A stretch of 64,000 nt of DNA from assembly GCF_009649845.1 (NCBI RefSeq), contig NZ_WJIE01000001.1, forward strand, positions 682,001 through 746,000, given 5' to 3'. Of this stretch, positions 10,844-41,719 are shown one piece after another. Numbering within the stretch: position 1 is the stretch's first letter; each line of letters begins with the position of its first letter. Source of the stretch: Polyangium spumosum (GTDB lineage: Bacteria > Myxococcota_A > Polyangia > Polyangiales > Polyangiaceae). The notes under the pieces were generated by a model. The model saw only the letters and a program-made list of their open reading frames with translations, ran no database searches and was not told the DNA's origin. A program made the translations under genes and the position numbers.

Positions 10844-11668
10844 ATGAGCGAAGATCTGGACCGTATCATCAGGAACATCAGATATCGTATTCGCAAGAAA
10901 GACCCGAGCGGGTTCGAGGATGCCGTCAGGCTCGCCGAGCAGTATCCCGAGGACGCGGACGTCTGGGACACGGTTTCATACGCCTACGATAAGAGGGACG
11001 ATCATGCCGCCGCCATGGCAGCCATGACGCGGGCGATAGAGCTCGACCCCAAGGGGCTGTCGCTGTTCTACAAGCGAGGCGAATACGCGCTCCGAACAGG
11101 CGACCATGAGAGCGCCGTGGCCGACTTCAGCCGAGGGCTCGTCCTCTCTGACGAGCTCAACAAGAATTACTTGCGCGATGAACTCCACTTCCGGCGCGCC
11201 GAGGCATTCATTCAGTTGGGCAAAAAGGCCGAGGCGCTGGCCGACCTTTCACAGTTGCGGGATGACTACGTCAACTTCGGGCCCAAGATTCGAACAAAAG
11301 CAGACCTCCTGGTGATGTGTGGGGAGAGCCTTCCGCCGCCCAAGGAGCAGGAGGACGAGCCGCCCGTATCGTCACCGGCCATCGCCGACGCTCCCGACGA
11401 AGAGGAGGTCGCGCTCGCGGAGCAGCTCGGGGAGGCCGGTATCGCGGCCGTCGACGCGGCGCTGCTCGAACAGCTCAGCCATCGATACCTGAAGGCTGCG
11501 CGCATCATCGGCGACGCGATTGACTTCGGCAGTTACCCGGCCGACAGCCTCCACGTCCGCCTCTTTGCCCGCCGGCTCATCGCCCTCGCGGAAGCCGGAG
11601 CCATCGTCGCGCGGGGAAACCTCCTCAACCCGCGGCGCAGCGTGGTCCGTCTCCCCGACAGCCCCTGA
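10844..11668 (+). CDS. TPR protein with C-terminal DUF3658-like domain
   Basis: The 274-residue protein starts at ATG 10844 behind GGAAGGAG. Residues about 1-140 form three to four TPR-like helical pairs (for example AIELDPKGLSLFYKRGEYAL). After a Pro/Glu linker, the last 80 residues (SHRYLKAARIIGDAI, then LARRLIAL-type helices, then RSVVRLP) follow the pattern of the C-terminal winged-helix-like part of DUF3658 proteins; this match is from memory of the pattern. The first third has lower GC and more A/T-ending codons than its neighbours, which suggests later arrival. The gene lies between hairpin repeats and a tandem array, and its stop codon falls inside the first array unit. An antitoxin/immunity role is possible but not shown. 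Confidence 0.7.
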   Translation: MSEDLDRIIRNIRYRIRKKDPSGFEDAVRLAEQYPEDADVWDTVSYAYDKRDDHAAAMAAMTRAIELDPKGLSLFYKRGEYALRTGDHESAVADFSRGLVLSDELNKNYLRDELHFRRAEAFIQLGKKAEALADLSQLRDDYVNFGPKIRTKADLLVMCGESLPPPKEQEDEPPVSSPAIADAPDEEEVALAEQLGEAGIAAVDAALLEQLSHRYLKAARIIGDAIDFGSYPADSLHVRLFARRLIALAEAGAIVARGNLLNPRRSVVRLPDSP

Positions 11669-11955
11669 CTTCACCCCTCACTCCCCCGTCCCCCTCGTCA
11701 GAACCGGTTCTGACTTGCCCTTCCCTCCCCCGTCCACCTCTGTAGAACATCTTACCTTTGCCTTCCCTCCACCGAACCTCTCGTCAGAACCGGTTCTGAC
11801 TTGCCCTTCCCTTCACCGTCCCCCTTCGTAGAACATCTTACCTTTGCCTCCCCTCCACCGTCCTCCTTCTCAGATCGTGTTCTGACTTGGCCTTCCCTCC
11901 CCCGAAGCTCTTGTCGCAAAACCGAAGTTTCCTGTACAGTCCCCCACACTCCAAC
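11655..11955 (+). repeat. Tandem array with alternating 44/42-bp half-units (86-bp period)
   Basis: Boxes TCAGAACCGGTTCTGA (a perfect 16-bp palindrome) start at 11698 and 11784, with a decayed copy at 11870: exactly 86 bases apart. Between them GTAGAACATCTTACCTTT starts at 11742 and 11828, again 86 apart. Each box is followed by a pyrimidine-rich tract like CTTCCCTCC. About six half-units are visible plus a degenerate one over the stop codon of the TPR gene. The array fills the whole gap before the gene at 11982. Confidence 0.85.
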
Positions 11956-11981: not shown

Positions 11982-12746
11982 ATGACCGAGCCTGATCTCC
12001 AGAAAGCCTACGAAAAGCACCTCCTCGCAGCGAAGGCCCTGCCTGCCTCCGAGGTCCTGCCGTACCGCGTCGACCCCGACCTCGCCCTCGTGAACGTCTC
12101 GACCTGCATGAAGGTCGTTCACGACAACGAGGCGGCAATCCCCACCCACCTGCCCAAGGTCAACCTCGCCGCCTTGCTCGCCCTGCCCGAGCTCGCCCTC
12201 GCCACGAAGTACGCGGCGCTCGTCGTCGAGCAGGAGATTCCGAACGAATCGCAGATCCGGGCGAAGCTCTCCCTCGCGCGTGACCTGCGCGAAAAGCTCC
12301 TGACCGTCGCCAGGGGCCTCGCCGAGAATGGCCTCGTCCCGCAAGCCGAGGTCGACGTCATCGCCGCCGGGCGAGGCCTCCGCGATCGCGCCGAGGATTG
12401 TGTCGCCCTCGCGGCCTTCTTCCGCAAACACGCGCAAGCCATCGACGGCAAGCACCCGCTCACGGTCGCGCAAATCGACGAGGCCGCGACGGTCGGCTCC
12501 TGGCTCGTCGCGACCCTCAGGCCCGCGGATGCCCCGAACAAGCCCTCGTCCGGCCCCAGCAATGCCGTGGACCTCCGCAACCGCTTCGCCACCCTGCTCG
12601 TCCGGGGCCACGCGCGCCTGCAAATGGTCGCCCATTATTTCCACGAAGAGGACTGGGAGGAGCGCGCCCCCGCGCTCAACTCGAGGCGCGTCAAGCGGCA
12701 AAACGAAGGCTCGAACGAAGACACGCCCGCGCCCGCGGCGGGTTGA
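11982..12746 (+). CDS. Helical cytoplasmic protein, function unknown
   Basis: This 254-residue protein has no signal peptide or membrane span. It is rich in Ala, Leu and charged residues, and almost entirely helical by eye. The C-terminal part has a basic/aromatic stretch DLRNRFATLLVRGHARLQ and ends in a polar tail. I recognise the style of large paralogous families of hypothetical proteins in Polyangiales, but no function is known to me. The gene is directly preceded by the 86-bp-period array, which may be its control region. The product at 39128-39910, of similar size and composition, has a comparable array upstream. Confidence 0.75.
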   Translation: MTEPDLQKAYEKHLLAAKALPASEVLPYRVDPDLALVNVSTCMKVVHDNEAAIPTHLPKVNLAALLALPELALATKYAALVVEQEIPNESQIRAKLSLARDLREKLLTVARGLAENGLVPQAEVDVIAAGRGLRDRAEDCVALAAFFRKHAQAIDGKHPLTVAQIDEAATVGSWLVATLRPADAPNKPSSGPSNAVDLRNRFATLLVRGHARLQMVAHYFHEEDWEERAPALNSRRVKRQNEGSNEDTPAPAAG

Positions 12747-21566: not shown

Positions 21567-22616
21567 TCAATACGGCGGGTTCCAGTCCTCGGACGTGCTC
21601 ACGTCGGCCTCGTCGCCGAGGGCGGCGGCGCGGCTGCACCAGATCGTATCCTTGTCTTTGACGCGGTGGAAACGCGTCCGGAAGACCTTGGCGCCCTTGA
21701 AGTCGGCCGCCGAGACGTCGGCGTGCGTGAAGTCGGCGTAGGTCAGGTCGCAGTCCACGAGCCGCGCCCCCTCGCACGCGGCGCGGTGGAAGATGGCCTC
21801 GTCCACGCGCGCGCCCGAGAGATCGGCGAGGGGCAACTTCGCGTCGGCGAAGAGCGCTCGCGTGAGGCATGCCTTCGTGAAGGTCGCCCGCGCCATCTTC
21901 GCCTCCACGAAGACGGCCTGCTGCGCCTCCGCGCCGTCGAAGCGCGCCTCCACGAGGTTCGCCCGCATGAAGTTGCACTGACGCACGATCGCCCGCTCGA
22001 AGGAGGCGCCCTCGACGTCGGCGTCGATGAACTGCGAGAGCGTCAGGTCCATCCCGGCGAAGTTCACGCCCCGGAGCCTGGCGCCGATGAAGAGCGTGTT
22101 GTCGAAGCGCGCCTCGCTGAAGTTGGTCTCGGTGAGATCGGCCTTGTAGAGCGTCGTCTGCTTGAGGCACGCCCGCGCGAGGATCATGCCCGTCACCGTG
22201 CACTCGACGAACCCGGCGCGATCGAGGTTGCACCCCGAGAGATCGGCGCGCGAGAGATCACTCTGCGCGAAGCCCGAGATCACGAGGTCGGAGCCCGACA
22301 GCCGCGCCTCCGTGAGATCACACTGGTAAAACTTCACGACGGGCATGTTCCCGCCGCGCAGATCGGCCCCGCGCAACGTCGAGCGGTTCCACACGGCGTG
22401 GCGCAGGTTCGCCTCGTTCATGCGGGCGCCGTCGAAGTCGCACTCGCTGAGCACGCTCTCCTTGAACAGGCAGCCGCCGAGGTTCGCCCCGCGGAACGAG
22501 ACCTTTTCGAAGATGCCGCCGGAGAGATCGGCGCCGGCGAGATCGAGGCCCGAGAGGTCGATCCCCGAGAGGATCTCCCCGCCCTTGACCCTCTGCACGA
22601 GCTCGGTCTTATCCAC
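21567..22616 (-). CDS. Pentapeptide-repeat protein (T6SS accessory)
   Basis: The protein has 349 residues from GTG 22616, which is preceded by AAGGAG. Nearly the whole chain from about residue 18 to 330 follows the A(D/N)LxX pentapeptide pattern (for example LSGLDLAGADLSGG), which folds as a square right-handed beta-helix. The start overlaps the 3' end of the upstream DUF2169-pentapeptide gene by eight bases, indicating translational coupling. In T6SS clusters such proteins are thought to form an adaptor or plug with DUF2169 and DUF3540. It is unlikely to be a gyrase-protecting Qnr protein given this context. Confidence 0.9.
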   Translation of the reverse strand: MDKTELVQRVKGGEILSGIDLSGLDLAGADLSGGIFEKVSFRGANLGGCLFKESVLSECDFDGARMNEANLRHAVWNRSTLRGADLRGGNMPVVKFYQCDLTEARLSGSDLVISGFAQSDLSRADLSGCNLDRAGFVECTVTGMILARACLKQTTLYKADLTETNFSEARFDNTLFIGARLRGVNFAGMDLTLSQFIDADVEGASFERAIVRQCNFMRANLVEARFDGAEAQQAVFVEAKMARATFTKACLTRALFADAKLPLADLSGARVDEAIFHRAACEGARLVDCDLTYADFTHADVSAADFKGAKVFRTRFHRVKDKDTIWCSRAAALGDEADVSTSEDWNPPY

Positions 22617-25311
22617 GGCTCTCCTTGCTTCCCGGCTTGACCGCGGCCTTCTGCGCGCTCGGATCCACGCCCTTCGGCGACACGCGGACCTGCGTGACGA
22701 GCGCGTCGAAGAAGCTCGTCTTGTCGTCACCGACGGCGCGCAGGAGGTCGGCGCGGAAGAGGTTCGCGCCCTTGAAATCGGCGCGTCCGAGCTTCGCCTT
22801 GAGGAAGATCGCGCCCTCGAGGTCCGCCGCGACGAGGCTCGCGCCCGTGAGATCCGCGCGCATGAACAGGGCGTTCTTGGCGACGGCGCGGTAGAGCTTG
22901 GCTTCCCGCAAGACGCACTTCGAGAGGTCCGAGGCGGAGAGCGTCGCGCCGCTGAAATCCGCGTGGCTGAAGTCGGCCTCGCGCAGCGTCGCCGCGGCCA
23001 TCGTCGCGCCCGTGAAGTCGGCGCCGATGAACGAGCACGGCTCGGCGAGCCGCATCCCGCCGAGGTTCGCCTTCAGGAACGACGCGCCGTCGAGCGTGCA
23101 CCGGACGAGCGAGGCGTGCTCGAGCGTCGCGTTCGCGAAGTTCGCGTTGCGCAGGTCGACCTCGACCAGCATCGCGTGCACGAACGTCGACTCTCGCAGA
23201 TCGCAGCCGCGCAGCAGGTTCCCCTTCAGGATGCACTTATCGAACCGAGCCCCCGAGAGGTTCGCGCCGTCGAGCAGGACGTCGGAGAGGTCGGCGAGCT
23301 CGAAGACGACGTTTCGCAGCGACGCGCCCGTGAGATCGGCCTTGGCGAGGATCGCGCCGCGAAGATCGACGTCGTCGAGCTTCGTGCTCCTCGCGTTCGA
23401 GGCGCCGAGGTTCGCCTCCGCGAGATCGGCGCCCGTGAAATCGGCGCCCGAGAGATCGGCGCCCGCGAGCACCACGCGCGAGAGCTTCGCGCCGCGCAGG
23501 TTCGCCCCGGAGAGGTTTCCGTTCTCGAGGAACGCCTCCGAGAGGTCCACGCCCACGAGATCCATCTCGGAGAGATCCGCGCCCGAGAGATCGATCCGCG
23601 CGAGGCTCCGGCCCTCCGCATGCGCAGCCGCGACGCGCTTTCGGAGCTCGCTGCGCGCGGGCTCTTCGAGGCGATCGGGGCGGAACTCGGCGAGGTGCGC
23701 GCCGTCGCGATACGCGTTCCGGGCCTCCTCCTCGGCCCTGCGCAGCTTCTCCTCGGTCGCCGGATCGGAGAGCGTCGCGTCGAGATCGGGCGTCGACACG
23801 TTCGCGTTCTGGCAGAGCGTCTGGATGTCGCGCAGCCGCTCGAGCTCCTTGTCCGCGGAGAACTTCGGCGGCCCGGCGGCCTCCTTCTTCATCCTGCGGA
23901 CCTCGGCGTCGTAGTTGATCCCCGCCGCGGCGTAACGCTTCCGCGTATCGGCGAGCGTCATCTCCTGCGCCTCGTCCATCGTGCGTTGCGCCTCCGCGAG
24001 CTCGCGCTCCGAGCGCTCCACGAAGTCCGGCAGATCCGCGAACGAGGGCCCCTCCACGGGCTTCGGCCCCGGAGCGACCGGCACGAGGTCCGGATCTCCG
24101 CCCGCCGCCAGGATCTCCGCGCGTGTCCGCTCGGCCTCGCGACGCGCGCGCTCCGCGAGGTTCTTCTGCAACAGGTTCTCCGAGCGCGTGAGCTCGAACA
24201 TCGCGTCGATGTCCCCGCCCCCCGAGACCTTGCCGCCCCCGTCGGGCGGCAGGAGGTCGCCGTCGCGGAAGACCTCGGAGGCCTCGCGCTTCGGATCGAG
24301 CCTGCGCTCGAGCACGGCGCGGTAATGCTCGAGGGGCCGCTTCGACGCTTGATCGTCGGCGGCGACGAGCAGGTGGACGATGTCGTCCGCGTCGTCCTCG
24401 GCGACGGCCCAGAGCCCGCGGAACGAGAGCGCCACGCGCTCGTGGTGCGGGAAGATCTGCACCGTGTCGAGGTGCAGCGGGATCTCGCGGAACACGTCGC
24501 CCTCGGCCGTCCGCTGCGTGACGAAACATCGGCCGACGACGCCCGGCAAGCGCCCCTCGATCCGAGGTTTGTCGGGGTGCATGTTCTCGACGAGGATCTC
24601 CTCGACGCCCTCGAAGAAGCCGGCCGGGAGCTGCTGATCGTTCGGCGCGGCGCTCCACATGGAGAGGTCCATGTCCTTCGCCAGGCCCGGCAGATCCTCG
24701 CGCATCCACTTCGTGTCGTAGGTGCCGATCTTCGGCCACCGCTGGGCCCAGAGCAGATCGTAGGGCCCGAAGCCCGCGGGCGGCGGCCTGTCGGACGTGC
24801 TCTTGATGAGCCTGTCCGGCAGCTCGATGTTCGGCAAGCGGTGCAGCACGCGCCCGTCGACCTTGATCGGGGCGAACCCCACGCCGATGGGGTTCTGCGG
24901 GAACCCCTCGCCGCCGAACGCGTGCGTGTAGCGGATGGGCATCTCGGTGAAGAGCTCGGGATCACTCGGCGTGCCGTCGCGGCGGAAGACCCGATCGCCG
25001 ATGACGTAGAGCGTCTTGTCGACGGGGCCGACCTTCACGCGCACGGACGCCGCGGGCCTCGGGACACGGTTCGCCGTGAAGCAACGGCCGTGCACGAGCA
25101 CCTCGCCGCGTTGCTTGGGCATACACTCGTCGATCACCGCCTCCTTGCCGAGCTCCGCGGCCGCGAGGCGCCACATCTCGACCTCGGAGAGCAGGCTCGG
25201 CGCCTTTCCGAGGTCGCAGAAGACGAAGACCGTCGGCACGAAGTAGTGCTTGTGATCGAGCTCGAACGTCCGCGTGAGGACGCCGAGCTTCATGGGCTTG
25301 ATGGTCTTCAA
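22609..25311 (-). CDS. DUF2169 fused to pentapeptide repeats (T6SS accessory)
   Basis: This 900-residue protein has DUF2169 at about 1-340, opening with KTIKPMKLGVLTRTFE, which matches family N-termini. A charged Ala/Glu/Arg helical linker spans about 370-560, and a long pentapeptide beta-helix about 570-885. The family-like N-terminus requires a TTG start at 25311; the next ATG (25293) would remove it. The gene begins seven bases after the VgrG stop, so coupling may compensate for the weak start. Its size suggests a large scaffold near the spike complex. No catalytic motif is visible. Confidence 0.88.
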   Translation of the reverse strand: MKTIKPMKLGVLTRTFELDHKHYFVPTVFVFCDLGKAPSLLSEVEMWRLAAAELGKEAVIDECMPKQRGEVLVHGRCFTANRVPRPAASVRVKVGPVDKTLYVIGDRVFRRDGTPSDPELFTEMPIRYTHAFGGEGFPQNPIGVGFAPIKVDGRVLHRLPNIELPDRLIKSTSDRPPPAGFGPYDLLWAQRWPKIGTYDTKWMREDLPGLAKDMDLSMWSAAPNDQQLPAGFFEGVEEILVENMHPDKPRIEGRLPGVVGRCFVTQRTAEGDVFREIPLHLDTVQIFPHHERVALSFRGLWAVAEDDADDIVHLLVAADDQASKRPLEHYRAVLERRLDPKREASEVFRDGDLLPPDGGGKVSGGGDIDAMFELTRSENLLQKNLAERARREAERTRAEILAAGGDPDLVPVAPGPKPVEGPSFADLPDFVERSERELAEAQRTMDEAQEMTLADTRKRYAAAGINYDAEVRRMKKEAAGPPKFSADKELERLRDIQTLCQNANVSTPDLDATLSDPATEEKLRRAEEEARNAYRDGAHLAEFRPDRLEEPARSELRKRVAAAHAEGRSLARIDLSGADLSEMDLVGVDLSEAFLENGNLSGANLRGAKLSRVVLAGADLSGADFTGADLAEANLGASNARSTKLDDVDLRGAILAKADLTGASLRNVVFELADLSDVLLDGANLSGARFDKCILKGNLLRGCDLRESTFVHAMLVEVDLRNANFANATLEHASLVRCTLDGASFLKANLGGMRLAEPCSFIGADFTGATMAAATLREADFSHADFSGATLSASDLSKCVLREAKLYRAVAKNALFMRADLTGASLVAADLEGAIFLKAKLGRADFKGANLFRADLLRAVGDDKTSFFDALVTQVRVSPKGVDPSAQKAAVKPGSKESRG

Positions 25312-34079: not shown

Positions 34080-34171
34080 AGGCACGGGCCTCACCCACCC
34101 CAACCCTCCCTCTCCACACCGTTCCCGTCCCGGGAGAGGGGCGAGTCCCGAGCGCGCTCCCACCGAAGCGA

Positions 34172-34252
34172 TGTTCCTCCTTGCTCCGTTCCTCCGTCCT
34201 GATGGACAATGATCCCCAGGAAGACCGCAGGCTCGCTCACCGCCGCGGAGGG
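34172..34252 (+). repeat. About 80-bp segment duplicated near 40.34 kb, copy 1
   Basis: The stretch containing TTGCTCCGTTCCTCC and GATGGACAATGATCC recurs with about ten differences at 40339-40419. In one frame both encode a short peptide starting MDNDPQEDR. It sits directly before the toxin gene and may carry its promoter or leader. Confidence 0.7.
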
Positions 34253-37397: not shown

Positions 37398-39053
37398 TCA
37401 TACATCCGGACTCATGGGCGCCTCGCGGTCGAATGGCAGCCGCATCGTGAACGACGTCCCACGTCCGGGGGCGCTTTCCACGTCGACGCTCCCGCCGTGG
37501 GCCTCCGCGACGCCGCGGACGATGGCCAGCCCGAGCCCCCAGCCGCCCGGCGCCGCGTGCTCGTGGCGAGCGCGGGTGAAGGGCTCGAACAGCCTGGCCT
37601 GTTCGTCCACGGGGATGGGCGGGCCCTCGTTGTGGACCTCCACCTCGACGTGATCCGGCAGTGATCGCACGGTGAACCGCACCGGGCCCCCCGCCGAACC
37701 ATATTTCAGCGCGTTGGACGCGAGGTTCCAGAAGGCTCGCCGGAGCTCCTCCCGGCCCCAGCTCCCCGTCGTGGGCCCCTCGGGCGTGGTGAGCACGAGC
37801 CGGTCGCCGTGCTGCTGGGAGAGCTCGGCGAAGAGCTCTCTCACGATATCGAGGATATCGCAGCGCTCGCGCGAGAGCGGCAGGCGCTCGCCGGCGCGGA
37901 TACGTTGCACGTCGAGCAGGTCGCTCACCATACGATCGGCTCGGGTCAAGCTACGAAGGGCGATCGACGCCCAGTGGCGCGCCCTGGCCTCGTCCGTCGA
38001 GCGTTCGAGCATTTGCGCCGCCACGCGGGCCGCAGAGAGGGGCCCACGGAGGTCGTGCACGAGGATCGACGAGAAGACGTCCCGCATTTTCTGCTCCTCG
38101 TTCAGCTCCGCGATCCGGTCCTCGAGCTGGCGGTAAAGCTCCACATTCTCGATGAGGAGCCCGAGGTGCTCGGCGATCGCCTCGATCCTCCCTTTTTCCC
38201 GCGCCGAGAAAGAACGATACGCGCGCAAGCCGACGTACATCACGCCGATGAGGGCATGATGGATGGGGATCCGGACGCCGAGCAGCGAGTGGATTCCGCT
38301 GCGGCGGAGGGTGTCGGTGACGTCGAGATCGGTCGTCTCGGCGTCGAAGATCGTGGTCGTCTCGCCCCGGGTCGCGATCATCCCGGCGAAGGAGGAGGGC
38401 GTGACGGCGCGCGCGTATTGCGCGACGCGCTCGTCGGCGAGCCCCGCGGACGCGGTCATCACGAGCTCGTGGCTGGTGGGCTCGTAAAGCAGAATGGCCG
38501 CCGTGGCCGCGTCCAGCGCCTCCATGACGAGCGGCATGGCAGCTTCGAGCCGGTGGGCCAATGTCGGGGGCGCGCCGCCCTCGTGGGGCTTCCGCTCCAT
38601 GAAGGCCTGCCGTATGAGCCTGAAAAACCGTTTCTCCGATTGTGCGTCGTCGAGGAGGTGCCGGACGAACATGTCGGACACGAGCACGGTCGAAGCGCGG
38701 ATGACCTCGAGGACTCCCTCGATCTGCTGTGCGTCGAAGCGCTCCTCGGGCGGAGCGGCTGCCCACACCTGGAAGATGCAGCGCCCGAGGAGCGCGAACT
38801 CGCTCTGGACCTCGGCGAGGTCGAAGCCGTGGCGGAGCCGGGAGGCGACGTGGCTCTCCACGAGCTCGACCTGGCGGCGGCGATCCGGAGCCGCCCCGCA
38901 AGGCGCGGCCAGCGACCCGAGGTATGCCGGCATGATGTTCATCAGCTCGGGCTGCGAGAGCCCACGCGCAGACGCCGCCCTCTGCGCCTCCTCGGCCCAG
39001 CGCTCGAGGATGCGGGCACCCTGCGTCTCGATGATGTGCTCGATCGTGGGCAC
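37398..39053 (-). CDS. Sensor histidine kinase with RsbRD-like N-terminus and GAF domain
   Basis: This 551-residue cytoplasmic protein starts at GTG 39053. Residues about 1-135 are helical and resemble the RsbRD N-terminal sensor fold (ILERWAEEAQ opening). A GAF domain spans about 165-305. A dimerisation helix with the phospho-accepting H-box LVHDLRGPLS follows (His333). The ATPase domain carries an N-box with NLASNALKYG and a G-box with GGWGLGLAIV. No membrane span is present, so it senses an internal signal. No response regulator is adjacent, which makes it an orphan kinase. Confidence 0.92.
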   Translation of the reverse strand: MPTIEHIIETQGARILERWAEEAQRAASARGLSQPELMNIMPAYLGSLAAPCGAAPDRRRQVELVESHVASRLRHGFDLAEVQSEFALLGRCIFQVWAAAPPEERFDAQQIEGVLEVIRASTVLVSDMFVRHLLDDAQSEKRFFRLIRQAFMERKPHEGGAPPTLAHRLEAAMPLVMEALDAATAAILLYEPTSHELVMTASAGLADERVAQYARAVTPSSFAGMIATRGETTTIFDAETTDLDVTDTLRRSGIHSLLGVRIPIHHALIGVMYVGLRAYRSFSAREKGRIEAIAEHLGLLIENVELYRQLEDRIAELNEEQKMRDVFSSILVHDLRGPLSAARVAAQMLERSTDEARARHWASIALRSLTRADRMVSDLLDVQRIRAGERLPLSRERCDILDIVRELFAELSQQHGDRLVLTTPEGPTTGSWGREELRRAFWNLASNALKYGSAGGPVRFTVRSLPDHVEVEVHNEGPPIPVDEQARLFEPFTRARHEHAAPGGWGLGLAIVRGVAEAHGGSVDVESAPGRGTSFTMRLPFDREAPMSPDV

Positions 39054-39127
39054 AGCCCCCCCTCACGCTCACCCCATAGCACAGAGGGCGCGAGGCGGGG
39101 GCTGCCGAGCCCGCTCCCCGCTACCGC

Positions 39128-39910
39128 TCAGCCCGTCGTCTCCTCCGCGGGGCTCTCCTGCTTCTCATTCCCCTTCCGCGTCGCCCGCGCCGCCGCCTCG
39201 GCCCGCAGCTTCGCCATTGCATCGAGCAGCGGCGCGAGCAGCACCTTCCCCTCCTGGATCTTCGCCGTCTCCGACCGCTTCGCCCGGCTCGACACATACC
39301 GCCGGAGCCGCACCATCAGCTCCACCCAATCCGTCTCCGCGTCGCGGCCACCGCCGACGTGCGTACGCTTGTCCGTGCGCGCCTTCTCCACCTCGGCGAG
39401 CAACGCGTCGCTCTTGTCGAGCGCCGTCTCCCATTTCTCCAGCCATACCGAAGGCAATTCGATGGCCGTGAGCGTCGCCGCGTGCTCCGGGGACCGGAGG
39501 ATCACCAATGCATCCCGGCAGATCCGATTCTCGTCGGCGATGGGATCGTCCACGTGCGCGAGGCCATCGGGGAATGCGGCCTGGTGGACGGCGGCGGCCT
39601 GGAGCGCGAAGGGGCTCGTACGGCGGCGCGCCTCGATGTCGATGTAACTCTCGATATGGCGATACCAGGTATCGACCGCGTCGTCCGCGCTGGCGAGCTG
39701 CGCGAGCCGCGCCGTGCGCTCCGCCTCCGCGAGCACGTTCCCCGTGACGTGCGCGTCGAGCTCGTCGACGACCTCCGCGCATTCGTCGATATACGCGTCG
39801 AGCGCAGGCTCCGGGGGGCCTTTCACGGCGCGCGCGGTGAGGTTGTCCTTGAGCTTCTTGGCGATGTCGCGCTTCTCGGCGCGCGGGATCTGATTCAAGC
39901 TGACGCCCAT
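39128..39910 (-). CDS. Helical cytoplasmic protein, function unknown
   Basis: The protein has 260 residues from ATG 39910, just behind GAGGAG. It is charged and almost entirely helical, has no signal or span, and ends in a basic then acidic tail. A stretch ETDWVELMVRLRRYVSSR near the C-terminus vaguely recalls the basic stretch of the product at 11982, but the two are not obviously homologous by eye. The 43-bp tandem array begins about 70 bases upstream of its start, in the divergent gap shared with the gene at 40493. Confidence 0.72.
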   Translation of the reverse strand: MGVSLNQIPRAEKRDIAKKLKDNLTARAVKGPPEPALDAYIDECAEVVDELDAHVTGNVLAEAERTARLAQLASADDAVDTWYRHIESYIDIEARRRTSPFALQAAAVHQAAFPDGLAHVDDPIADENRICRDALVILRSPEHAATLTAIELPSVWLEKWETALDKSDALLAEVEKARTDKRTHVGGGRDAETDWVELMVRLRRYVSSRAKRSETAKIQEGKVLLAPLLDAMAKLRAEAAARATRKGNEKQESPAEETTG

Positions 39911-39977
39911 GTCTCCTCGTGGCTCCCCCCCATGTCTGCCAGCGAGCGTAACATCCTCACGTGTCGCAGGGAAGGAA

Positions 39978-40364
39978 ACACACGAGTTCGACGAGGTACG
40001 AGGTTGGAACGTCCCTGGCTGCGTCATCGTCGAGCGACGAGGACGTCGGAGACGTCCTGCGATGCGTCATCGTCGAGCTAGAAGCAAAAGGGGAACGTCT
40101 CCCTCGGTCTCCCAGCGAGGCGAGGAGGACATGGGGGACGTCTCGGGCGGCTTCGTAGGCAACCTATGAGCCCCGCGCGAAGATTTTGCGGCGCGTCATA
40201 GTGAAGCTAGAAGGGAGCGGGGAACGTTCCCCGCTGCGTCATAGTGAAACGAGGGGAAGGGAGGGAAGGTCGCCAGCGGCTTCCTCTTCGAAGGAGGAGG
40301 TGGAAGGGAACGTTTCGAGCTCGTTCCCAGCGCGGCGAGGTCCTCCCTTGCTCCGTTCCTTCCT
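39978..40364. repeat. 43-bp tandem array, nine units
   Basis: Units of exactly 43 bases start at 39978, 40021, 40064, 40107, 40150, 40193, 40236, 40279 and 40322. The best-conserved ones open with GCGTCATCGTCGAG or GCGTCATAGTGAAG and close with GGAACGTC or GGAACGTT plus a C-rich end. One unit junction contains the perfect 20-bp palindrome centred on GGGGAACGTTCCCC (40216-40235). Outer units are more degenerate. No stable open frame or CRISPR-like spacer pattern runs through it. Confidence 0.85.
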
Positions 40365-40419
40365 CCTGATGGACAATGATCCGCAGGAAGATCGCGGGCC
40401 CGCTCACCGCCGCGGGGGT
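40339..40419 (+). repeat. About 80-bp segment duplicated near 34.17 kb, copy 2
   Basis: It contains TTGCTCCGTTCCTTCC and GATGGACAATGATCC and matches 34172-34252. It starts inside the last unit of the 43-bp array and lies about 75 bases before the small gene at 40493. In one frame it encodes MDNDPQEDRGPAHRRGG, close to the peptide of copy 1; differences include both silent and replacement changes. Confidence 0.7.
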
Positions 40420-40492
40420 GACGAGGCGTGGCTGCGCTCACTGAAGGGCCTGGGCGCATGACCTTGGCCCCATGCTGGTGGGAGGAACGACA

Positions 40493-40729
40493 ATGAGCAG
40501 TGGTCATCCGAACTTTTTGCCCGACGAGACACTGAAGACGCTGGAGCGCATTGCAGAGAAATATGATGAAGGTTCGCCCGAACGTGCGGCGCTCGAGGTC
40601 GCCGCCAAGGGACTGTTGTTCATACATGCTGCCGAACATGGCAATACATTTGTCGAATACCTCGAACAGTTCGACGCCGATCTCACGGAGGAGCAGCGTC
40701 GGCACCTGACGAGAATGGGTCTCCGCTAG
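40493..40729 (+). CDS. Small acidic protein, function unknown
   Basis: The protein has 78 residues starting at ATG 40493, with GGGAGGAA five bases upstream. It is acidic and helical (DETLKTLERIAEKY, FDADLTEEQRRHL). The base composition is less GC-rich than the surrounding genes, with several A/T-ending codons, which hints at transfer. It follows the duplicated segment that also precedes the toxin gene, so it could be an antitoxin or immunity-like protein. That link is inference only; no toxin gene is adjacent. Confidence 0.6.
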   Translation: MSSGHPNFLPDETLKTLERIAEKYDEGSPERAALEVAAKGLLFIHAAEHGNTFVEYLEQFDADLTEEQRRHLTRMGLR

Positions 40730-40750
40730 AATCCCCCGTCGACGAATGAG

Positions 40751-41578
40751 CTACCTCGCCCCCGGCGTGAACAGCGGCTCCCCCGTCGCCTTCACGCCAA
40801 ACGCCCCGATCCTCGCCCGCCCCTCCTCCGACCGGAGAAACTCTGCAAACGCGCGCGCCCCCTCCGCGTTCGCCGCCGCGCCCGCCTTCGGCTCGATCAC
40901 CGCGTACGTGTTCCGCAATGCGGGATCCCCCTGGTACACGATCACGAGCTTCAGATCCCCCTGCTTCGCCCGGAACGTCGCCCGGTCGCTCAGCGTGAAG
41001 GCCCCCTCGTCCGACGCGCGCTCCAGCGTCTCGCCCATCCCCGCGTTCGCACGCACGAGGAATGCGCCATTCGTGGCGATCCCCGCGGCCTTCCATAACG
41101 CCATTTCGTGCTGGTTCGTCCCGGAGTCGTCCCCCCGCGACACGAACGAGCGGCCCGAGGACACGATGCGGCGCATCGCCTCCACGATGTCGCCCGCGCC
41201 CGCCACGACGCCGACCTGATCCAGAGGACCCACGAGGACGAATTCGTTGTGCATGAACGGGCTCCGGCGACCGACCTCGCCCGCCGCCACCGCCGCCTCC
41301 TCCAGGGCCGGCGCGTGCGTGATCGCCACGTCCGCCTCGCCGTCCCGGAGCGCCCGGAGCGCCTTGCCCGAACCGAGCGCCCGAGCCTCGACGCGATAAC
41401 CCGTCTTCGCCTCGAACGCAGGCAAGAGCTCGTCGAGCAGGCCCGCGTCCTTCAGGCTCGTCGTCGTCGCGAGCCGGAGCGCGCGCCCGCCCGCAGGCGG
41501 CTTGCTGCACGAGAGGCCCACGAGCGCGAGCAGAAGGACGGACAGGAGCGAGGCGAAGGCGCGGCGTGACGCGTGCAT
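40751..41578 (-). CDS. tupA: Tungstate-type ABC transporter substrate-binding protein
   Basis: The protein has 275 residues from ATG 41578; a GTG at 41614 would add 12 residues before the signal. The lipoprotein-like signal ends at LSC (Cys23). The mature part has ATTTSLKDAGLLDELLPAFE, GSGKALRALRDGEADVAITH and SPFMHNEFVLVGP, which are the family signatures of TupA/WtpA-like oxyanion binders. The SRGDDSGTNQHE segment contributes to anion binding. The permease and ATPase (tupB, tupC) are not adjacent, so it may work with components elsewhere. Tungstate over molybdate is inferred from family resemblance. Confidence 0.82.
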   Translation of the reverse strand: MHASRRAFASLLSVLLLALVGLSCSKPPAGGRALRLATTTSLKDAGLLDELLPAFEAKTGYRVEARALGSGKALRALRDGEADVAITHAPALEEAAVAAGEVGRRSPFMHNEFVLVGPLDQVGVVAGAGDIVEAMRRIVSSGRSFVSRGDDSGTNQHEMALWKAAGIATNGAFLVRANAGMGETLERASDEGAFTLSDRATFRAKQGDLKLVIVYQGDPALRNTYAVIEPKAGAAANAEGARAFAEFLRSEEGRARIGAFGVKATGEPLFTPGAR

Positions 41579-41719
41579 GACGGGGAGGTTACCGCGCGCT
41601 TCCGCCCTCGTCACCCTTTTGCTGCCCGTACGGCACCAGCGAGACGGTTTATTGCTTTCCGCCGGGCCTCATCGTTCTCGATTCCATTGCGCCATTCATT
41701 CGATCTATCGTGATCTTTC

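Follow-up and report, generated by a model that had tools for sequence, protein, structure and literature searches.

The F-plasmid site sopC (parS_F) is built from twelve tandem 43-bp repeats with 16-bp inverted repeats that are bound by dimers of the ParB protein SopB, as given in the available part of its description (PMC9178275); an excerpt of a second account counts ten repeats (PMC6238139). According to the accessible portion of the source on ToxIN, a tandem repeat array lies directly 5′ of the toxin gene (PMC5086642), and TIGR-Tas loci, in the part of the report at hand, combine a protein gene with an adjacent array of alternating 8–12-nt repeats and 9-nt spacers, with RNAs of 36 nt (PMC12045711). 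CarH operators of the Sorangiineae are described, in the section available, as a few tandem direct repeats (PMC9304148). The locus presented here comes from a 64,000-nucleotide stretch of the Polyangium spumosum genome (contig NZ_WJIE01000001.1, 682,001–746,000; hereafter the window) and carries nine 43-bp repeat units directly 5′ of a gene for an all-helical protein. A sequence-only reading of this DNA knew of no described element of this form. Given the 43-bp repeats of sopC, as documented in the available parts of the two sources (PMC9178275, PMC6238139), that statement is valid in part only. A literature search, covering mainly openly accessible work and some sources in excerpt, found no earlier description of these arrays.

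Results

The array occupies positions 39978–40364 of the window (387 bp, 9.0 × 43) and comprises nine strongly diverged units, as judged by autocorrelation, unit alignment and codon score. Its self-identity at lags of 43, 86, 129 and 172 amounts to 53, 50, 54 and 48%, the four highest values among lags 5–199. Dinucleotide shuffles gave 27 ± 2.4% at lag 43 and reached the observed 53% in 0 of 1000 cases; likewise, 0 of 1000 shuffles equalled the observed maximum over lags 20–100. Thus, the nine-unit, 43-bp array proposed from the letters alone was confirmed, and its periodicity is retained against random shuffles. The GCGTCAT motifs are located as described (40021, 40064, 40193 and 40236); that GGAACGT lies near most unit ends was an overstatement, the motif being present in four of the nine units (40006, 40092, 40221 and 40307). 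TRF at a score of 40 does not report the array because its units have diverged, and with an ungapped repeat finder the 43-bp step is visible in part only. A coding origin was rejected, as 43 is not divisible by 3 and a codon score of −0.26 marks the array as non-coding. On contig C1, TRF gave nine clusters of period 43/86, two of which scored 0.12 and 0.32, which is not clearly non-coding. The unit starting at 40193 contains a perfect dyad, GGGGAACGTTCCCC, at 40219–40232, and a GGAACGTTCC-type core is present in units of several relatives' arrays. Elsewhere in the window, positions 22500–23600 hold 15-bp repeats of coding type, presumably pentapeptide repeats.

The gene next to the array (39128–39910, minus strand) encodes a 260-aa all-helical protein, the window member of what we call family A. 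Its start codon is 67 bp away from the array start. The intervening leader (39911–39977, minus strand) has conserved TG.TA....T columns and is, we infer, a promoter candidate; a consensus promoter scan of this leader found none. The interval had been taken for a divergent promoter region, of which the left partner is sound and the right one doubtful: the acidic 85-aa ORF on the plus strand (40472–40729) is uncalled by a simple codon-usage gene finder, and the next gene called past the array lies on the minus strand at 40751–41614. The distal end of the array coincides with a dispersed element of approx. 100 bp (40316–40418, plus strand). A copy at C4:792049 lies at the end of another array; copies at C1:716149 (window 34149–34251, 84% identical to 40316–40418) and C12:89561 each precede a secreted-protein gene, the two genes being paralogous; and a partial copy lies at C25:53683. 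By eye, an array of period ~42 at L005:1114–1500 stops right at the C12 element.

The arrangement of array and gene recurs. Within 700 bp upstream, 28 of 29 aligned family A homologues have an array of period 43 (24/28) or 42 (4/28) directly 5′, with array scores of 0.49–0.99. Among 20 named loci, largely the same genes as the 29 homologues, a test for an array within 900 bp at a score of at least 0.50 found a 5′ array in 18 of 19 evaluable loci and a 3′ array in 0 of 20. The same 900-bp test on 681 other genes of the contig returned 17 with a 5′ and 33 with a 3′ array; the resulting p value for 18/19 vs 17/681 (4e-25) overstates independence, as orthologues share descent. Recurrence upstream of homologues of the 39128–39910 product, which the sequence-only reading had named as a check, was thus borne out by the aligned homologues and the named loci alike. 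The exception is a single gene of Polyangium sp. 6x1 (L023 and L051) with a 43-bp array approx. 1 kb upstream, at a score of 0.48. At about 3125–3874 of L051, a putative small lipoprotein-like gene, read by eye, separates the array from the helical gene; elsewhere the two are adjacent. In the genome under study, all four intact family A copies and one pseudogene that were found have a 43-bp array directly 5′. Left out of the linkage counts were L041 and L068 (contig end), L043, L071 and L072 (fragments) and the pseudogene L013, which also has a 43-bp array; a 3′ match of L034 at lag 43 was dismissed as artefactual, since this locus is truncated by its contig end.

Family A consists of all-helical proteins of about 250 aa without a Pfam assignment, mainly from Polyangiaceae, with Polyangium, Minicystis and Byssovorax among the named hosts. 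Of 108 genomes searched in the host's family, 10 contain homologues (5 of 48 genera). A class-wide sample of 289 genomes contained 14 with a match, nine at E < 1e-100, all in the host's own family, and five weak (2.7e-7 to 8.7e-4), of which four fall outside it. Searches of Pfam, NCBIfam, PADLOC and PHROGs gave no match for the window protein, and no relative turned up in phage and plasmid collections. Scanning 29 members against Pfam gave weak sub-threshold matches, none to ParB. A weak match to DUF6261 (PF19775) was seen in 3 of the 29 (best E 0.015), and the window protein does not match this domain at E 0.1. Eight DUF6261-like stretches, two of them above cut-off, were noted at G000:C4:703971, C1:1246247 and other positions. 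AlphaFold2, supplied with a 21-row alignment (the window protein and 20 relatives), predicted an all-helical fold with confidence (mean pLDDT 92, pTM 0.73), including two long helices of 60 and 55 residues. Structure searches with this model returned generic helical bundles only, and the best matches (Foldseek E 0.011; VIA Z 10, McpS sensor domain) were discounted as lying at the level expected by chance among helical bundles.

Sigma-54 promoters have the consensus TGGCAY-N5-TTGC. Such a site, with GG and GC in place, lies 101–106 nt before the first aligned codon in 12 of 12 subtype-B genes (L037, L044, L039, L033, L040, L046, L035, L047, L036, L042, L011 and L012), gene-proximal to the array in every case; a score of at least 9 of 11 on this pattern is reached in 0.7% of random windows. 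Six of the twelve also carry upstream GCTCC-N5-GGAGC boxes, ~22 bp apart where repeated. None of nine subtype-A genes, the window gene included, has a sigma-54-like site; L032, outside subtype B, also scores 9 on the pattern, at a different position. As the array is present in both subtypes and the site in subtype B only, the array is independent of promoter type.

While the period of family A arrays stays at 43 or 42, their unit motifs are many and different. Syntenic orthologous arrays have 29–30 of 43 consensus bases in common, their flanking DNA being 82–87% identical; the window array and its counterpart in Polyangium sp. 15x6 agree at 30, with about 20 expected by chance. Within the genome, the window array has 31/43 in common with that of a 94%-identical paralogue. 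The well-conserved arrays of L030 and L038 are homogeneous along the entire unit, and a 21-bp sub-period (half period) was not found in 43-bp arrays. Register shifts affected 1 of 312 steps, a figure biased by the trimming of arrays to in-register stretches beforehand, and inspection by eye reveals small shifts in L026, L034 and L036. An interpretation of the rarer periods 64/65, 86, 107 and 127 as multiples of 21.3 bp was dropped, as a larger scan also gave 36, 62, 121, 133, 134 and 145.

In the unit class TTGG[G/C]G-N3-C[C/G]CCAA (11 arrays; 3 of 78 units were dropped from the covariation analysis for low similarity), covariation among column pairs at least three apart is strongest at the dyad pair 17–23, with GC in 42 and CG in 29 of 73 unique units. 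The dyad of this class is maintained through a double change; the GC/CG swap separates two array groups and may represent a single event. Across 53 arrays the mean dyad score is 5.7 vs 4.45 shuffled; a dyad reaches p<0.05 in 12 of them, and 41 have no significant one, the consensus of the window array itself giving p=0.11. A transcribed array whose RNA would act together with the helical protein, in the manner of type III toxin–antitoxin or stem-loop TIGR loci, appears improbable to us. The layout beside a single protein gene is that of ToxIN and TIGR-Tas in the available parts of the sources (PMC5086642, PMC12045711), and some arrays fold better than column-permuted controls, that of the window with z −2.4 and −3.6; the mean over 30 arrays, however, is only −0.8 and −1.2, and a consistent RNA hairpin was set aside as unsupported overall. 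The off-pairs of dyad pair 14–26 (CA 15, TG 8) show no clear strand preference, Rfam has no match in 39000–41000 and PADLOC none either, and in one protein family the array stands on the 3′ side.

Arrays of this kind are not confined to family A. In 1.27 Mb scanned of the 10.76-Mb genome we found 25 clearly non-coding arrays, 18 of them of period 42–43 (16 of 43, 2 of 42). The second array of the window (43/86 bp, 11654–11930) lies 5′ of a family B gene (11982–12746, plus strand), whose 254-aa product is predicted at low confidence to be mainly helical; its AF2 model from a single sequence is poor (pLDDT 58.8). One family B paralogue has a 42-bp array 5′ and another has none. Profile comparison detected no homology between families A and B (hhalign probability 0.1%). 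In the helical family F (527668, 231 aa), a 42-bp array follows the gene on its 3′ side, as it does in a 39%-identical paralogue; a further match, partial (E 7e-4), stays below the threshold. An element unique to one divergent promoter is not supported, given same-period arrays elsewhere in the scanned genome and the family with arrays at the 3′ end. A putative 65-bp array at 479571 was dropped (background identity 0.45).

Helicity of the neighbouring genes was computed from Chou-Fasman values. A rank test within 205–275 aa gave p 3e-4 (9 flanking vs 152 other genes) and, over all lengths, p 0.17. A cut-off of 1.06, picked post hoc, is passed by 8/38 flanking vs 36/926 other genes, and one of 1.115 by 0/36 flanking genes; at the chosen cut-off, 12 of the 19 42/43 arrays in the scan lack a neighbouring gene of 205–275 aa called as helical. 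An enrichment of helical genes beside arrays is thus suggestive. Two genomes with family A had three (G007) and one (G067) 42/43 arrays in 400 kb each, and a Polyangium genome with three family A genes (G086) had none in a 200-kb sample. Separately, another genus has long, clean non-coding arrays with periods of 44 and 62 (G007:C1:248937–249646 and 371545–372476), and a cluster of arrays with periods 121–134 (also 66), unlike the 43-bp class, at G000:C2:206009–235001.

Five remote arrays with the family A unit (C5:708676, C3:252267, C2:194434, C1:842003 and C6:151480) lie at none of the family A genes found in this genome, and one solo array with the same unit shows 85% identity over 308 bp. 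Gene neighbourhoods were read for two of the five, those on C1 and C2. These could be solo remnants of a mobile gene-plus-array cassette, which would also account for the three to seven family A matches per Polyangium genome, fragments included. We consider such a cassette very improbable, since many homologues share only 43–50% identity with the window protein and are hence old, synteny between species is seen at some loci, and phage and plasmid collections and PHROGs contain no relative of the protein.

A neutral or selfish minisatellite, produced by a local duplication bias towards 42–43-bp arrays and kept beside genes by descent, is rather unlikely and yet deserves more weight. It would fit the frequency of arrays in the scanned intergenic DNA, the five arrays of this genome that joined no unit cluster, and the similarity of syntenic arrays, which falls below that of their flanking DNA. 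Against it stand the side fixed per family (5′ in 28/29 for family A; 3′ in 2/3 for family F, the third being a partial match), a linkage of gene and array maintained across genera and the dyad kept through a double change. Moreover, 600 kb of two genomes of the same taxonomic family without family A contained no clearly non-coding 42/43 array.

Discussion

Because a tight four-turn spacing with drifting letters coincides with a fixed side per family, a kept dyad and remote arrays, we favour phased protein binding. A helically phased DNA–protein array, sopC-like in its working and without a ParB-like protein, is a reading that we place just short of evenly balanced. Each 43-bp unit of four helical turns would present one site on the same face of the DNA. 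The sites, dyads in several arrays, would be bound cooperatively by a dimeric protein, building an extended nucleoprotein complex that resembles SopB on the 43-bp repeats of F sopC. In family A, the array would be placed immediately 5′ of the promoter and would probably control expression of the helical protein, and remote arrays with the same unit may serve that binder as distant sites. The adjacent helical protein is the foremost candidate for this role; we infer the identity of the binder as well as binding, cooperativity and an effect on transcription. Weighing against this reading are the many arrays without a significant dyad, the possible single origin of the GC/CG swap, the missing 21-bp sub-period, the lack of a domain-family match for the protein, the arrays with no helical neighbour, those between convergent genes and the 200-kb sample of G086 that contained no such array. 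Of the same-face phasing and cooperative operators suggested earlier, the phasing agrees with a spacing of 42–43 bp (4 × 10.5–10.75 bp), one unit class keeps its dyad, and the binder is predicted.

The term promoter operator is too narrow, because other helical genes have arrays and one family has them at the 3′ end. A promoter role finds support in one subfamily, in which the array is always upstream of the conserved sigma-54-like promoter, but 6 of 18 arrays on one contig are flanked by genes that converge on them, a setting in which control of a promoter is unlikely.

Tentatively, and as a possibility well below even, the arrays might belong to a hitherto undescribed class of spacing-locked modules on Polyangiaceae chromosomes: several sequence-unrelated helical families of ~220–260 aa, each with its own 42–43-bp array on a family-specific side and with solo arrays, could together form genome-wide self-and-remote recognition arrays that organize the nucleoid or co-ordinate expression, selection keeping the spacing and not the sequence. 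If so, very large bacterial chromosomes would use many centromere-like arrays, each with a dedicated uncharacterized protein, and repeats would be free to drift in sequence while the four-turn spacing stays. Several families of unknown proteins would gain a function, and a natural system for the helical-phasing constraint on regulatory DNA would become available. For direct tests, 28 gene-array loci have been located.

Of the RNA-based systems, ToxIN, as far as the available description goes, shares with family A an array directly 5′ of one protein gene. The differences are the lack of a toxin-family match in Pfam and PADLOC, a larger, all-helical protein and weak RNA folding. ToxN is not known to be all-alpha. 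A consensus scan of the window locus found no terminator-like site in the 67-bp leader; two overlapping terminator-like matches lie inside the array (40088–40105, gene strand). With TIGR-Tas, again in the part of the description at hand, the common feature is an array that adjoins the gene of its protein, but the 43-bp units are homogeneous in well-conserved arrays (L030, L038) without a sub-period. As to the Nop domain, Pfam gives no match for family A, and the structure lists contain generic helical bundles. CarH operators, in the available account, are far shorter than the present arrays. The TGGCAY-N5-TTGC site of subtype B and the GCTCC-N5-GGAGC boxes in half of its genes resemble sigma-54 enhancers with tandem activator sites; the 43-bp array, in contrast, is situated further upstream, has a much greater length and occurs in subtype A as well, where that promoter is lacking.

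Compared with F sopC, the arrays described here are chromosomal, many per genome and, in family A, 5′ of the gene, and their unit sequence varies between loci. Inverted repeats are clear in one unit class and significant in the 12 of 53 arrays mentioned above, the window consensus not among them. No ParB match was obtained for the family A protein, and none of five window proteins scanned is of ParB type. The array is not a member of the sopC type, because none of the searches made here showed its linked protein to be ParB-like. The likeness appears to be one of layout: tandem 43-bp direct repeats, placed beside the gene of the binding protein in sopC, as the available parts of its descriptions have it, and beside that of a candidate binder in Polyangium.
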